From positions 1 through 32,257 of IMG/VR virus record IMGVR_UViG_3300044675_000655: DNA of 32,257 nucleotides; one strand, given 5' to 3'. A program made the position numbers and the translations under genes. The first letter of the stretch is position 1. Every line of letters begins with the position of its first letter. Shown one piece after another: positions 4,501 through 32,165 of this stretch. A model generated the notes under the pieces. It saw only the letters and a program-made list of their open reading frames with translations, did not search any database and was not told the origin of the DNA. The stretch comes from a virus.

Positions 4501-4610
4501 AAACGCTCGAAAGTTTCGTTAAAAGGTAATTTTTCAGTTTGGTAAGTTGACCGAACGCCTTTTGGCGCTAGGTCTTTAGGTCTTTGGATTTCTTTTCCTA
4601 AGTATCTCAT
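4464..4610 (-). CDS. Small gene overlapping the nuclease and HTH genes, 48 aa
   Basis: An ATG at 4610 overlaps the nuclease stop as ATGA and opens a frame of 48 codons, MRYLGKEIQRPKDLAPKGVR and onward to a TAA at 4464-4466. The frame fills the only gap between the nuclease and the HTH gene and then runs 37 bp into the HTH gene in another frame. The ATGA junction is the main argument for reality. The product is basic and hydrophilic with no known domain. Confidence 0.55.
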   Translation of the reverse strand: MRYLGKEIQRPKDLAPKGVRSTYQTEKLPFNETFERLWQLTNTKNLTK

Positions 4611-5221
4611 TTGATTTGGAGGTTTGATTCTATATAATTACGGCACTCAATAACTCGATTTTTTACACGCTCAATAAATTCTGGGTCGTATGCAATTTCA
4701 AATTCTTTGATTCGTAAATAATCTGGGTAAATACTGTAATCAATTGGCTCATCCCATTGCAATTCCTCTGGAGTATTTTGCAGCGTATAAACGAGCTTTG
4801 CCGTTTTTAAACCAGTTAGATTCATATAACCTTGCAATTGAGCTTCGTAATTTTTATCAACTTTGGTTTCAAAAAGAGGAAAAGTAAAGCAATCCCAAGA
4901 CGATTTAAAATCGTAAACCGTAAATTGAGTAATTAGGTCTGGAGTTCCAGTAATAAATTCATTTTCAAAATAGTCTTGATTTTTAAGTACAAAACCTAAA
5001 TTTTTGACCTCGGAATAATATTCAATAGCTTCAATTTCAACCTCGTGACCTTTAGTTAAATACTTGGAATTAACTTGCTTTTTGATGTTGTACAATTGCT
5101 CCTTTACCCATTGTTCTAGGTAGCTTATACACGTCTGCGAAAGCGTTTCGCTTTTTGACCTTGGCTCGGTCATAATTTGACAAATTGCCGAGCATCTGAT
5201 TTTAAATTGATTTAGTTGCAT
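4607..5221 (-). CDS. YqaJ / lambda-exonuclease-type recombination nuclease
   Basis: The 204-residue product has the RecB-like PD-(D/E)XK order of the YqaJ and lambda-exo families: an upstream acidic helix (GHEVEIEAIEYY, residues 58-69), GTPDLI (92-97), VYDFKSSW (102-109, giving D104 and K106) and the QLQGYMNLTG helix (128-137). The N-terminal IMTEPRSKSETLS segment is the usual start in Bacteroidota phage homologues. It likely digests one strand of double-stranded DNA ends to give single strands for annealing. It pairs with the OB-like protein encoded just upstream (10-bp overlap), though no obvious Bet or Erf annealase is present. Confidence 0.8.
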   Translation of the reverse strand: MQLNQFKIRCSAICQIMTEPRSKSETLSQTCISYLEQWVKEQLYNIKKQVNSKYLTKGHEVEIEAIEYYSEVKNLGFVLKNQDYFENEFITGTPDLITQFTVYDFKSSWDCFTFPLFETKVDKNYEAQLQGYMNLTGLKTAKLVYTLQNTPEELQWDEPIDYSIYPDYLRIKEFEIAYDPEFIERVKNRVIECRNYIESNLQIK

Positions 5222-27964: not shown

Positions 27965-28110
27965 TAAGCCACTCCCCAAAACCACATTATAACCAAGCCA
28001 AGACGGCCGTACCACTCCCAACCAAAAACGTTAAAAGATAGGAAAACAAAGGATGCCAATAGATAGCAAATTAGAATCCATAGAATTAGCGTAATACTTT
28101 CTTTTGTCAT
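27946..28110 (-). CDS. Two-TM small membrane protein between terminase and portal, 54 aa
   Basis: An ATG at 28110 overlaps the terminase stop as ATGA and opens MTKESITLILWILICYLLAS. A Trp-rich second helix (GLVIMWFWGVAYF) and the end EKNI follow, with stop at 27946-27948. Two hydrophobic helices around a WEWYGR turn predict a hairpin membrane protein. It is not a standard terminase neighbour. Possible roles include early lysis timing or superinfection control; none is shown. Confidence 0.62.
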   Translation of the reverse strand: MTKESITLILWILICYLLASFVFLSFNVFGWEWYGRLGLVIMWFWGVAYFEKNI

Positions 28111-29324
28111 ATTGAAAAGGTGAATTTTGTGCCTAACATTAATTCAGTAAAACCCCAGACCAAAGCGTCCACGCGGTCGGGCGATTTGCCTTTGTCCGGG
28201 TCAAATGTAACCATTTGTTTTTCTAGTATCGGAAAACTCCCAACGTGGTAAATTTTATTTTGCTCGTAAAGGCTATAAATAGGCTCTGCGCGGACGTACT
28301 TTCCTTTGGTCGCCGTTACTAGCTTAATTCTAGCGTTGCCGCTCTGCGACCTTAAAACGCTTTCGACCATATCGCCGCCTTGGTTTTTTTCGGCTACTAT
28401 ACAATCAGCGTCCCAATTTTTAAACGCTTGGCTAGCAACCTTTGCCCATTCGTTAGGCGAATACTTACCGGACAAATCCTCCAGGACGTAGCCTTTGCCT
28501 TGGCTATCTTTTCCTAATACCATTATACCGGTTTCGTCCGATTCTAAGTTTGCGGACGCAGCTGGGTCAATAGCAACAACAATGCGCTCCAAATCTGGCT
28601 TGGCTGCAACTCTAATTTTATCAATCAAAGGTTTAGACCAAAGTAAACCCTCGGCATCGTCTAGCCATTTGCCCAAAAATAAATGCTCGTACCTATGTAG
28701 GTTTTCCGCTTTAACTCTTTGCGCTTGGTCTATAAAGCTTTGCGAAAGGTTGCGCTCGTTGTCTAAATAAGTAGTATGGATGTAGCTACAATTGTCAGTT
28801 TTATGCTTTACAAAGCGATTATAAATCCAATGCGACTTGTAACTTGGATTCATTACCAAAATAACACGGTTGGGCTTATTTGCCGCTCTAATTGAAAGGT
28901 CTATGCGGTCGAATACGTCTTCGTCGTTTAGTTCCTCGGATTCGTCGAGAATAAAGGTTGTAACGCCAGCGATTGATTTGAGGTTAGCGGTTGCCGTGCC
29001 TTGGCTGGTCTTGATTCCGCGAAATAAAATCTTTGAGCCTGTTACCTTGTTTATAATTTCGCTTTGCGTAATCTCAAAATCGCCTTCTTTATTCATTAAC
29101 TCTATTTTGTCAATGAATTCTGGGATAATCGAAATAAAGGCTGATGTTAAAGTCCAACGAGTAAAAAGGATAACGTGGCCCTCTTCGTAAGTTAGATTTA
29201 AAAGGAAAAGCGATAAAGTCCAAGACTTACCGGAGCCTCGGCCGCCAGTAATTAGGAAATAGCGAGTTTCTGGCTTCTCGTAAAAAAGCAGTTTGTATTT
29301 ATCCAGTAATTGGATTGACTCCAT
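28107..29324 (-). CDS. terL: Terminase large subunit
   Basis: The ATPase has Walker A GGRGSGKS (27-34) and Walker B FILDESEE (124-131), with the C-motif-like VMNPSYKSH. The nuclease domain begins with VVAIDPAAS (D253) and has IVAEKNQGG (E312) and SPDRVDALVW (D384 or D387) as metal ligands. It packages and cuts the DNA. It belongs to the Terminase_3/6 type. At 405 aa it is slightly short but complete. The stop overlaps a small membrane gene, and the ATG overlaps the TAA of the small subunit (TAATG). Confidence 0.93.
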   Translation of the reverse strand: MESIQLLDKYKLLFYEKPETRYFLITGGRGSGKSWTLSLFLLNLTYEEGHVILFTRWTLTSAFISIIPEFIDKIELMNKEGDFEITQSEIINKVTGSKILFRGIKTSQGTATANLKSIAGVTTFILDESEELNDEDVFDRIDLSIRAANKPNRVILVMNPSYKSHWIYNRFVKHKTDNCSYIHTTYLDNERNLSQSFIDQAQRVKAENLHRYEHLFLGKWLDDAEGLLWSKPLIDKIRVAAKPDLERIVVAIDPAASANLESDETGIMVLGKDSQGKGYVLEDLSGKYSPNEWAKVASQAFKNWDADCIVAEKNQGGDMVESVLRSQSGNARIKLVTATKGKYVRAEPIYSLYEQNKIYHVGSFPILEKQMVTFDPDKGKSPDRVDALVWGFTELMLGTKFTFSI

Positions 29325-29674
29325 TATTCAGTCGATATCCAAGTAATTGGAGGTGTAACCTTATCGCCTTTAGTCGTATGGTCAAGGTCTTGCTTATCTC
29401 TTTGACCTAGCCTTTGTTTACCAAGCCAAATAAGCATTCCTCTGTCCTTATCCTTTAAAGCTGACTCATATTGCTTAGCTAATAGCAACGCATCTCCTTT
29501 GCTTCTATTTTGCCGTAAAAAGTCGGTAAAACCCATTGACAAGTCTTCCTTGCATCGGTTGTACAAAGTCTCTGGGTCGCATCCAAAATAAGCTGCTATT
29601 TGAACGCCATCGCATCCAGCTTGCAAAAGCCTTCCAGCTTCTATCCAGTCTATATTTGCTCTTGGTCTTGCCAT
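29324..29674 (-). CDS. terS: Terminase small subunit-like protein, 116 aa
   Basis: Residues 8-45 (NIDWIEAGRLLQAGCDGVQI, then AAYFGCDPETLYNRC) form the N-terminal DNA-binding HTH of small terminases. A central helical part (LLLAKQYESALKDKDRGMLI, then WLGKQRLGQRDKQ) serves oligomerisation, and the polar end is probably the large-subunit contact. It recognises the packaging site. The gene sits between the ABC-ATPase-GNAT and large terminase genes with one-base overlaps. Confidence 0.85.
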   Translation of the reverse strand: MARPRANIDWIEAGRLLQAGCDGVQIAAYFGCDPETLYNRCKEDLSMGFTDFLRQNRSKGDALLLAKQYESALKDKDRGMLIWLGKQRLGQRDKQDLDHTTKGDKVTPPITWISTE

Positions 29675-30744
29675 TATTTTAATTCAAAAGATACTGTAAT
29701 TCTATTTTGTGATGTCTGCATATTACCTACTGTGCTACCTTTGCTTTGAGACGGTGTTCTTCCACTTCTAGCACAAATCCAACTTTTTGAATTTTTTAAA
29801 GATTTAATTAATGAAGGAGATGAAGAAACAATATTAAAACGAAATTTATCTTTTTTGTAAATATAACCAATATCGTTTAGAAGTTTTAAACCAATTCCTA
29901 TTCCTTGATAATCTGGCAAAACAACTAATCTGTGAACTTTTTTTATGTTTTTAGCGTGTGGATGAGGAAAATGTAAAATTGAAATAAATCCAGCTACTTC
30001 ATTATTTACTAAAGCAATAAAACATTCTGCTGCATTATTATGAGTATGACTTAAATAATGGTGCTTAGCAAACATTTTCCAGATTGCTTTATCTTTTGTG
30101 TTGAAAATCTCAAATTTGATATCTGGTCTATTTTTTTTTTGCCCTTCAAGCAATTGAAAGGTCATTGAATCGGTATTAAAAACCCAATCTGGTAAAAGCC
30201 AATCTATAATATCAAAATGACAAGAAACTGCAATAAATTGTTTTTTAGTTTTTCTTATTGCTTTTTGCATTGCAAATGAACCTACTTGAGCAACTTGTCT
30301 GTCAACTACAGAGGTAAATTCGTCAAATACAAATAATTCTTGTTCTTCTAGAATTGCTCTTGCTAAATCAACTCTCATTTTTTGTCCGTTAGATAAAACG
30401 GAATAAGGTTTTAACCAAGATGGAGGGGAAGAAAACCCAACTGAATTAAAAGCTTTAGTTATTTCGTCAACTGAGCAATTTTTTGGCATATCGTCTAAAA
30501 CTGTTTCAGCTTCATATTGATAATTTGTAATATATGATTCTGGAAATAACTGCTTAGCAATTGTAGTTTTACCAGTTCCAGATTTGCCAACAATTATTCC
30601 AATTTGCCAATCTTTTTGTAAATCAATATCTCCTTGAAATCTTTCTATAATGTGTTCAGATTGTAAATCAAATTTTCCAATTACTGAAGCAACTCTAAAC
30701 GTCTGTTTAGGCTTAACTTCTTTTACAATGTCAAAAGTCGGCAT
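29674..30744 (-). CDS. ABC-type ATPase fused to a GNAT acyltransferase domain (Mom-like?), 356 aa
   Basis: Residues about 40-200 form a small ABC ATPase: Walker A GKSGTGKT (53-60), signature LSNGQ (117-121), Walker B FVFDEF (138-143) and H-loop SCHFD with H176. It has no transmembrane or transport part, so it is a soluble, DNA-repair-type or switch-type ATPase. Residues about 208-335 are a GNAT domain with KHHYLSHTH at the start, motif A VLPDYQGIGIG (275-285), SSSPSLIKSLKNSKSW and CARSGR. GNAT-fold Mom of phage Mu modifies adenine; the HHYL and late W..RSGR patterns recall Mom-type enzymes. It overlaps parB-like by 22 bp. DNA base modification coupled to packaging is my inference. The sequence looks more AT-rich than the terminase genes. 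Confidence 0.75.
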   Translation of the reverse strand: MPTFDIVKEVKPKQTFRVASVIGKFDLQSEHIIERFQGDIDLQKDWQIGIIVGKSGTGKTTIAKQLFPESYITNYQYEAETVLDDMPKNCSVDEITKAFNSVGFSSPPSWLKPYSVLSNGQKMRVDLARAILEEQELFVFDEFTSVVDRQVAQVGSFAMQKAIRKTKKQFIAVSCHFDIIDWLLPDWVFNTDSMTFQLLEGQKKNRPDIKFEIFNTKDKAIWKMFAKHHYLSHTHNNAAECFIALVNNEVAGFISILHFPHPHAKNIKKVHRLVVLPDYQGIGIGLKLLNDIGYIYKKDKFRFNIVSSSPSLIKSLKNSKSWICARSGRTPSQSKGSTVGNMQTSQNRITVSFELK

Positions 30745-31235
30745 TCTAATCCTAGTTCAATTAATTTATTATAAGTCTTTTCCTGTTCTTCTTCTGAATT
30801 ACAATTAACTTCAATTTTAAACATTGAAATAATTGAATCAGATAAATCGTTTAATTCTTTTGTTTCTTCAAAATTTGGCACATCCAATCCCCACTCTTCT
30901 AACAAATTAGGTTCCCATTCATTTGCAAGCATTTCCCAGTCCCATTCTCCAAATCCTACGTTGTCCTTAATAATAAACTGCTTTTGCTCATCTTCTGTAA
31001 GGTCGTCAGCTTTAACAATAAAAACCTCTTTTAATCCAGCTTCTTTGCAAGCCTTTAGGCGCATATTACCACCCAAAACAATCATATCGCTATTAACTAC
31101 AATTGGCCGAATCTCTAGCATTTTAGGAAACTCTTGTATTGACTTTACAAGCTTTGCAAATTTGTCATCCTTTAAAATCCTTGGGTTATTAGGATTGTTT
31201 TTAACATCGTTTAGCTTTACTTTCTGTATATTCAT
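30723..31235 (-). CDS. ParB-like N-domain protein, 170 aa
   Basis: Residues 1-75 match the ParB/sulfiredoxin domain: NPNNPRILKDDKFAKLVKSI (14-33), IRPIVVNSDMIVLGGNMRLK (41-60) with the GGNMRLKACKEAG box, and KADDLTEDEQKQFIIKDN. No partner ParA is encoded, and the HTH DNA-binding part of chromosomal ParB is absent. In phages such stand-alone domains often precede DNA methylase or modification genes. The C-terminus (MFKIEVNCNSEEEQEKTYNK) is a separate small domain. It begins the ABC-GNAT and terminase operon and likely works with the ABC-GNAT protein. Confidence 0.8.
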   Translation of the reverse strand: MNIQKVKLNDVKNNPNNPRILKDDKFAKLVKSIQEFPKMLEIRPIVVNSDMIVLGGNMRLKACKEAGLKEVFIVKADDLTEDEQKQFIIKDNVGFGEWDWEMLANEWEPNLLEEWGLDVPNFEETKELNDLSDSIISMFKIEVNCNSEEEQEKTYNKLIELGLECRLLTL

Positions 31236-31312: not shown

Positions 31313-31564
31313 CTATTTTAATTCAATTACTTTTCCAGTTGGATTACCTGTAAAATCGCAGAGTTTACCGTTCCATTCAAATTTAACTTCTTTCTCTCTC
31401 CCTTGGTAAGCCGCTGCAATCAATCTTATTTGGCGCTGGACTATTTCCATATTCTGAAAATATCCTTTTCCTTTATTACTCCAAGGCGACCATTGGCCGT
31501 CCCTTAATCTGTATCTAATCTCCAGCGAATAATCTGGCTTACTCTTTGGCAGTTGTTTAGCCAT
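31313..31564 (-). CDS. Hypothetical protein after the Xre gene, 83 aa
   Basis: From the ATG at 31564 (a GTG at 31573 would add three residues) the product reads MAKQLPKSKPDYSLEIRYRL, then a basic beta-rich part with RDGQWSPWSNKGKGYFQNME and KVIELK at the end. The pattern resembles small beta-barrel phage proteins with no firm name. It overlaps the HTH gene by 8 bp, so the two are co-expressed. It might modulate the regulator; that is only from adjacency. Confidence 0.68.
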   Translation of the reverse strand: MAKQLPKSKPDYSLEIRYRLRDGQWSPWSNKGKGYFQNMEIVQRQIRLIAAAYQGREKEVKFEWNGKLCDFTGNPTGKVIELK

Positions 31565-31760
31565 TCTTTTCACGAATTAAAACCTCTAATCCAATCGCAT
31601 CGCAAATTTTACGCAAGTTAAACAAGCTAATCGACTCAAAGCCATTTTCGACTTGATTAATCGGTTGGTGACTCAAACCAATTTGGTTTGCCAAATCTAC
31701 TTGGTTAATCCCAAGCCTCTTTCGTGTTCGTCTAATTAGTCGGCCTTCCTCTAAGCTCAT
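31557..31760 (-). CDS. Xre-type helix-turn-helix regulator, 67 aa
   Basis: Residues 7-60 are an Xre/Cro-family HTH: RLIRRTRKRLGINQVDLANQ, IGLSHQPINQVENGFESISL, with the second helix and recognition helix in the standard positions. There is no C-terminal effector part. It is a small DNA-binding regulator, similar to antitoxin-type or early-gene control proteins. A toxin partner is not evident unless the next gene is one. It has a strong promoter of the same class as the replication leader, so it may control or be controlled with it. Confidence 0.85.
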   Translation of the reverse strand: MSLEEGRLIRRTRKRLGINQVDLANQIGLSHQPINQVENGFESISLFNLRKICDAIGLEVLIREKNG

Positions 31761-31823: not shown

Positions 31824-32165
31824 TTAAAATGGCAAAAGCGGATAGATTCCCATTTGTATAAATTCCTCGCCTTTCTTTACGATGCATTTGCGAACGTTAA
31901 GCTCAAAAACGTTTTTATCGTTAAAGCCGTATTTTTTTTGCGCTATGTCCAAAAGCAATTTTACTGGGTTATCGAGGTCGCTTGCCTTGTTGCTAAAGCC
32001 AAAAAAAAACTCAATCCTTAGCATTTGGTCAACGTCAATTTTACCCTTTGGCATCGTTAGCAAAATCGTTTCCTCGTACGACTTATAAGCTGGCGTTTTA
32101 AAGCGTTTGCCTTGCCAAGCCTCGTTAATGCTTAAAGGCTTTTCGTTTAGCTTAAATTGAATCAT
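31824..32165 (-). CDS. rusA: RusA-like Holliday junction resolvase
   Basis: The 113-residue product matches RusA. The N-terminal KLNEKPLSINEAW is followed by TPAYKSYEE, and the acidic site is SDLDNPVKLLLDIAQKKYGF (D63, D65, N66, K69, D73) plus ND83. It cuts four-way DNA junctions formed by recombination or replication. The ATG overlaps the end of the small membrane gene across the circle junction. It ends in LLPF, another F-ended tail like the 99-aa protein. The product is the last gene of the replication operon. Confidence 0.85.
   Translation of the reverse strand: MIQFKLNEKPLSINEAWQGKRFKTPAYKSYEETILLTMPKGKIDVDQMLRIEFFFGFSNKASDLDNPVKLLLDIAQKKYGFNDKNVFELNVRKCIVKKGEEFIQMGIYPLLPF

Follow-up and report, generated by a model that had tools for sequence, protein, structure and literature searches.

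The window analysed here, 32,257 bp long, comprises an entire virus contig from IMG/VR. On its minus strand a gene for a ParB_N protein is followed by one for a protein that joins an ABC-type ATPase to a GNAT domain (ABC-GNAT), and then by the terminase genes. The features of the locus are as follows.

30723..31235, minus strand: ParB_N gene, 170 aa, putative adapter (PF02195, 1.2e-6)
30849..31235, minus strand: constant part of ParB, codons 1-129, 85% identical to a ParB-methylase fusion; DNA homology stops here
30723..30848, minus strand: exchangeable tail of ParB, G+C 24.6%, C-terminus ECRLLTL; tails vary with partner class
30723..30744, minus strand: overlap of the ParB stop and the ABC-GNAT start, 22 nt, from the ORF coordinates
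29674..30744, minus strand: ABC-ATPase::GNAT gene, 356 aa, predicted ATP-dependent DNA base acyltransferase (phrog_11143, 3.2e-99; AF2)
30562..30588, minus strand: Walker A, GKSGTGKTT, residues 53-61 (motif; homologue alignment)
30382..30396, minus strand: ABC signature, LSNGQ, residues 117-121 (motif; homologue alignment)
30298..30336, minus strand: Walker B, catalytic Glu and D-loop, residues 137-149 (D141, E142, S145, V146, D148 and R149 invariant)
30049..30063, minus strand: HHYLS motif, residues 228-232, where the GNAT domain starts (H229 and Y230 invariant)
29890..29907, minus strand: acyl-CoA pyrophosphate loop, QGIGIG, residues 280-285 (Q and glycines nearly invariant)
29324..29674, minus strand: probable TerS, right flank of the cassette (phrog_309, 3.8e-5, weak)
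28107..29324, minus strand: TerL (PF04466, Terminase_3, 3e-28)

The overlapping ParB, ABC-ATPase::GNAT and terS genes reported in a preliminary description of this DNA are real, with ORFs at these coordinates and the Pfam domains present; the overlap between the ABC-GNAT and TerS genes, on the minus strand, is a single nucleotide. Upstream of the cassette we recognised by eye an XRE-type HTH protein (31557-31760) and a RusA-like resolvase (31824-32165). G+C content is 29.8% in the ABC-GNAT gene and 38.4% in the contig as a whole, and only 0.3% of stretches of the same size are as low. The dip starts within ParB, where G+C is 35.1% over codons 1-129 and falls to 24.6% in the tail; in TerS it has risen again to 41.9%. 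The earlier suggestion that low G+C hints at transfer is backed by these figures and by the sharp DNA breakpoints described below, with the dip beginning inside ParB.

In the ABC-GNAT protein Pfam detects both ABC_tran (3.8e-10) and Acetyltransf_1 (2.2e-9), and the match to phrog_11143 extends across residues 11-352, making it a full-length member of that family. The AF2 model comprises two well-folded domains, with a mean pLDDT of 89.9. Walker B is LFVFDE (residues 137-142) and includes the catalytic Glu, the D-loop is SVVDR (residues 145-149) and the H-loop is formed by H176. Among 83 diverse homologues the key ABC and acyl-CoA residues are invariant or nearly so. The complete ABC motifs and intact acyl-CoA loop of the preliminary description are thus borne out, with the signature reading LSNGQ, not LSGGQ. 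Membership of an ABC transporter was rejected: ParB and terminase are among the genes annotated nearby, in the window and in the loci surveyed, and none of these neighbours is named as a permease partner.

Pfam finds only ParB_N in the 170-residue ParB protein of the window, and no HTH or other partition domain. A partition ParB was rejected since the protein is without the central HTH/parS-binding domain and without ParA, and its neighbours are ABC-GNAT, terS and terL. The combination of a ParB with an ATPase nevertheless recalls partition or clamp systems, and the protein could be read as a soluble ABC ATPase for defence, counter-defence or DNA partition in which the GNAT domain is secondary. 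We find this reading barely credible: besides the absence of HTH and further domains from ParB, the GNAT residues, including the CoA loop, rank among the most conserved of the family, and Gram-positive phages keep the GNAT even as a separate, split-off gene.

A Foldseek match that spans both domains is TmcA (2zpa), at rank 30 with an rmsd of 14. TmcA, a tRNA cytidine acetyltransferase, resembles the window protein in fusing an NTPase to a GNAT domain, and offers a precedent for ATP-coupled access to a base. Its ATPase is, however, of the RNA-helicase type and its substrate is RNA, whereas the window ATPase is of the ABC type, and on this ground membership among TmcA-like RNA acetyltransferases was rejected. 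That ABC-GNAT acylates tRNA or another RNA as TmcA does, and acts on host or phage translation, appears highly improbable to us: ParB is a DNA-associated fold, and the partners found in the same genomic slot, described below, are DNA enzymes.

Conservation of the gene pair and its neighbours

In the window's branch, all 68 viral loci that extend far enough upstream have a ParB_N gene ahead of ABC-GNAT, and an overlap of exactly 22 nt is kept in 67 of these and in 20 of 69 chromosomal loci. ParB is adjacent in 59 of the 69 chromosomal loci (from Planctomycetota, Treponema, Nonomuraea, Bathyarchaeota and others), in 17 of 34 loci from Jace-like phages and, where a detectable ParB is scored, in 6 of 80 Mu-like loci. 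ParB is a frequent, non-obligatory partner of ABC-GNAT; since most Mu-like members have no detectable ParB, it is not essential to the enzyme. In several lineages the ABC and GNAT domains are encoded by two separate genes.

Linkage to the terminase is more variable. TerL lies at most 2.5 kb downstream in 31 of 44 viral loci of the window's branch, 35 of 53 chromosomal, 11 of 22 Mu-like and 6 of 33 Jace-like loci, and in P12024S, EastWest and Vibrio phage 32 the ABC-GNAT gene adjoins genes other than terminase. A universal linkage was rejected; the coupling to terminase proposed in the preliminary description holds for many lineages, viral and chromosomal, but not for all, and TerL is seldom close in the Jace-like phages.

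These counts bear on the proposal that an acyl mark chiefly licenses packaging, with the terminase or the adapter reading the acylated base. The frequency with which TerL is close by in viral and chromosomal loci, and the terS gene that directly abuts ABC-GNAT in the window, are in keeping with such a role; the few Jace-like loci with TerL nearby, and the three phages that carry the gene elsewhere, speak against it. Close relatives of the window's TerL weigh further on this point. We read the region before terS in TerL relatives with at least 82% identity, 59 of which gave enough sequence. TerS without ParB was found in 43, TerS with ParB but without ABC-GNAT in 13, the ParB/ABC-GNAT pair in two, and in one there was no TerS, ParB or ABC-GNAT. 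Because 43 of the 59 have no ParB cassette before terS, the window's terminase type packages without it. The replacement of ABC-GNAT by methylases, documented in the next section, argues for general protection. The packaging mark put forward in the preliminary description is therefore not supported, and we regard it as quite improbable.

Full-length ABC-GNAT proteins occur in many Planctomycetota and some Bathyarchaeota contigs (L093-L172), often near terminase and portal genes. Many of the chromosomal copies look like prophages because they stand beside terminase and portal genes, and a housekeeping role, as the Planctomycetota chromosomal copies might imply, was set aside for this reason. 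These contigs suggest a poorly known group of prophages.

Exchange of modifying enzymes behind a constant ParB part

The slot before terS holds different enzymes in relatives of the window. L254 matches the window at 85% identity across 129 residues of ParB and at 79% identity in TerS, yet its ParB continues as a fusion into an N6/N4 DNA methylase (PF01555). Such ParB-N6/N4 methylases fill the slot in L253, L254, L258, L288, L325 and L364, and L259 has a gene of 234 aa after ParB and then a TET/JBP oxygenase. When the window is compared with these seven loci, DNA homology stops at ParB codons ~108-129 and restarts at the start of terS. The ParB tail and the effector are cleanly exchanged as one block between relatives. 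The ParB-DNA methylase fusions of phages (phrog_498, PF01555) thus have a ParB 85% identical to that of the window and the same place before terS, but their catalytic part is a methylase and is fused, whereas in the window a putative acyltransferase is encoded by a separate, overlapping gene. Phage TET/JBP and TAGT genes (L259, L361, L365, L409 and L412) likewise use the same adapter and slot, with a chemistry of oxidation and glycosylation that is unlike the acylation predicted for the window.

A census of the 79 closest relatives of the window ParB, two of which were cut, left 77 informative slots, with ParB 72-86% identical. The partner is an N6/N4 methylase in 35, Mom in 12, TAGT and/or TET in 14, a C5 methylase in three, ABC-GNAT in seven and a PAPS-reductase class in three, with three partners without class. 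Established families of DNA base-modifying enzymes, the 12 Mom included, account for 64 of the 77. Representatives are clear in Pfam (TAGT 3e-37, C5 methylase 1.5e-45, Tet_JBP 5e-10), as is Mom in L402, L388 and L382 (2e-45 to 3e-30). In a tree built from 120 columns of the ParB part, many of whose forks are unresolved, parsimony gives 40 changes of partner class, and well-supported sister groups unite an ABC-GNAT partner with a methylase (L008/L364) and with Mom (L193/L430). The ParB tails differ between partner classes.

The slot in L371 (703-2669) holds a cupin-like gene and a PAPS-reductase/DUF3440 gene, possibly another type of DNA modification, and L386 and L387 are of the same class; in L363 an amidotransferase-like gene (4579-5190, by eye) comes after the ParB slot. 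The PAPS-reductase class and L363 are slot partners that are not clearly base modifiers. The 22-nt overlap with ParB is also present, as in the window, in the Mom loci L388, L396, L401, L402, L404, L414, L423 and L430, and its sequence differs between the unrelated Mom and ABC-GNAT classes.

We read these patterns as pointing to ParB as a shared adapter for DNA base-modifying enzymes, ABC-GNAT among them, that would replace one another on it. The idea in the preliminary description that ParB chooses the sites to be modified is not supported. Sharing the slot is a matter of kinship of role, not of identity of substrate. A literature search that covered ParB with TET and Mom, and Mu-like phages with a formyltransferase, turned up no paper dealing with the slot.

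Predicted activity of ABC-GNAT

From this sequence evidence we consider it probable that ABC-GNAT acylates a base in phage DNA in an ATP-dependent manner, with ParB as its adapter. ParB_N and ABC-GNAT would then form a two-gene phage DNA-modification cassette in which ABC-GNAT, a soluble protein, carries out ATP-dependent acyl transfer. The GNAT domain would move an acyl group from a CoA thioester to the exocyclic amine of a base, while the ABC domain, dimerising with ATP, may gate, clamp or remodel the DNA to give access to the base. ParB_N would be the constant part, probably engaging DNA or the replisome, onto which the modifying enzymes are swapped, and the acyl mark would most likely shield phage DNA from host nucleases. 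If this is correct, a DNA modification made by an ATP-using acyltransferase is widespread and uncharacterised, and ParB_N is a common adapter of phage DNA-modifying enzymes. Given the frequent swaps with methylases, TET/TAGT and Mom, the product would be expected in the virion DNA of cultured phages, among which Arthrobacter phage EastWest, Gordonia phage Axumite, Rhodococcus/Gordonia phage Jace, Nonlabens phage P12024S and Lactococcus phage P335 are carriers.

The preliminary description had likened the GNAT domain to Mom of phage Mu. At the family level this identification is not supported: PF25680 (Mom) has no Pfam match in the window ABC-GNAT protein. Similarity by other means is weak, with probabilities of 22.7 and 30.7 in profile-profile comparison with hhalign, which are of low significance, and rank 37 for the Mom fold in a Foldseek search of the viral library with the GNAT domain. 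With the same low significance, hhalign places the invariant HY of the ABC-GNAT family on the HY of Mom (HYS motif). The two have membership of the GNAT superfamily and an HY motif in common, and Mom genes occupy the same slot, with the same ParB and the same 22-nt overlap; ABC-GNAT differs in its canonical CoA loop and fused ABC ATPase, both of which Mom lacks.

The best solved folds for the GNAT domain are ordinary protein or small-molecule acetyltransferases, RimI-like ones among them. A closest resemblance to protein or tRNA acetyltransferases had been named in advance as an argument against DNA modification, and in part this is what was found. The fold rank leaves the substrate unfixed, and it is the slot evidence that points to DNA. 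The GNAT domain could instead acetylate a protein, such as the terminase, host RNA polymerase or a host defence protein, with the ABC domain regulating it and the side of the terminase serving as a common insertion spot for accessory genes. In addition to these folds, this is in line with the terminase neighbours of ABC-GNAT in many lineages and with the phage GNAT Rac, which acetylates RNA polymerase (cited in PMC7824862). We nevertheless judge a protein target unlikely, because the slot behind the same adapter is filled almost only by DNA-modifying enzymes, donor-type genes lie beside some members, and the gene comes after tail genes in the Mu-like Komp_PAO1_1 and a Porphyromonas phage.

The prediction of base acylation itself is not new. 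Iyer et al. 2021 (PMC7824862), citing Tenacibaculum phage pT24, predicted that GNATs coupled to ABC ATPases acyl-modify bases in DNA, and credited the prediction to Iyer et al. 2013 in NAR. We matched the pT24 exemplar as a phage by tblastn (35% identity, E 2e-48). It has the same domain pair at full length, though annotated there as two separate genes, and our search detected no ParB in it, unlike in the window locus. Through the Iyer prediction and the pT24 match, DNA acylation is already known as a prediction, and the window protein belongs to a large family earlier predicted to acylate DNA, its activity, base and acyl group all being predicted. The novelty claimed in the preliminary description falls to this extent; a role in DNA modification gains from the exchange with methylases, TET/TAGT and Mom.

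The passages of PMC7824862 on the ABC-GNAT family make no mention of ParB as an adapter, of exchange at the slot or of genes for donor supply. The literature searched, which did not extend to Iyer et al. 2013, likewise yielded nothing on slot exchange, on the conserved overlap of 22 nt or on the accessory genes, and the same search found no demonstration of DNA-base acylation by any ABC-GNAT member. It also found no paper for COG2401, and nothing relevant to the cassette in the PM105 phage paper. The LE3/LE4 phage paper files the ParB/ABC-GNAT pair under 'replication' and reports neither digestion nor modification data. The slot evidence sharpens a prediction made in 2013.

Accessory genes in other branches

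Genes for donor supply or tailoring (formyltransferase-like, PanD, CoA-transferase-like and ASCH) were sought within the window and were not found there, but they adjoin ABC-GNAT in other branches, in two of which they hint at the acyl group to seek. Members of the Jace-like branch carry, after ABC-GNAT, a gene for an aspartate decarboxylase (PF02261, 2e-33) whose Gly-Ser self-cleavage site is intact by eye, and one for a short CoA-transferase-III-like protein with weak, partial similarity (2.2e-8); the two recur as a pair in 14 loci. Loci with both genes were noted as L086, L523-L529, L534, L536-L540 and L543. Because aspartate decarboxylase makes beta-alanine, beta-alanyl-CoA is a possible acyl donor in this branch, although the decarboxylase has a part in normal CoA synthesis as well.

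In 56 of 80 loci from Mu-like phages the gene immediately after ABC-GNAT encodes a formyltransferase-like protein, and most of the other loci are cut by the contig end. A gene of this kind, usually overlapping ABC-GNAT, was seen in L443-L522 (Mu-like), L087, L438, L441 and L552. The three proteins read by eye keep the His and Asp of the catalytic triad but have Gly or Ile in place of Asn, so the chemistry of the formyltransferase-like proteins is uncertain. In Komp_PAO1_1 and the Porphyromonas phage, where transposase and Gam are present, the position of ABC-GNAT after the tail genes is like that of mom in Mu, which lies near the right end after the tail-fibre genes.

A more far-reaching scheme, which we offer as a speculation and hold to be doubtful, would combine these features: ATP-gated aminoacylation of DNA by the GNAT domain, with a beta-alanyl group where PanD and the CoA-transferase-like gene are present, a formyltransferase-like protein that tailors the product or supplies a one-carbon donor in Mu-like phages, and ParB as a universal plug for interchangeable DNA-modifying enzymes of tailed phages.

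ASCH domains are proposed readers of modified bases. ASCH genes lie downstream of ABC-GNAT in three Gram-positive phages (Streptococcus and Oenococcus phages), and an adjoining ASCH-domain gene was noted downstream in L083, L085 and L091 and upstream in L093.
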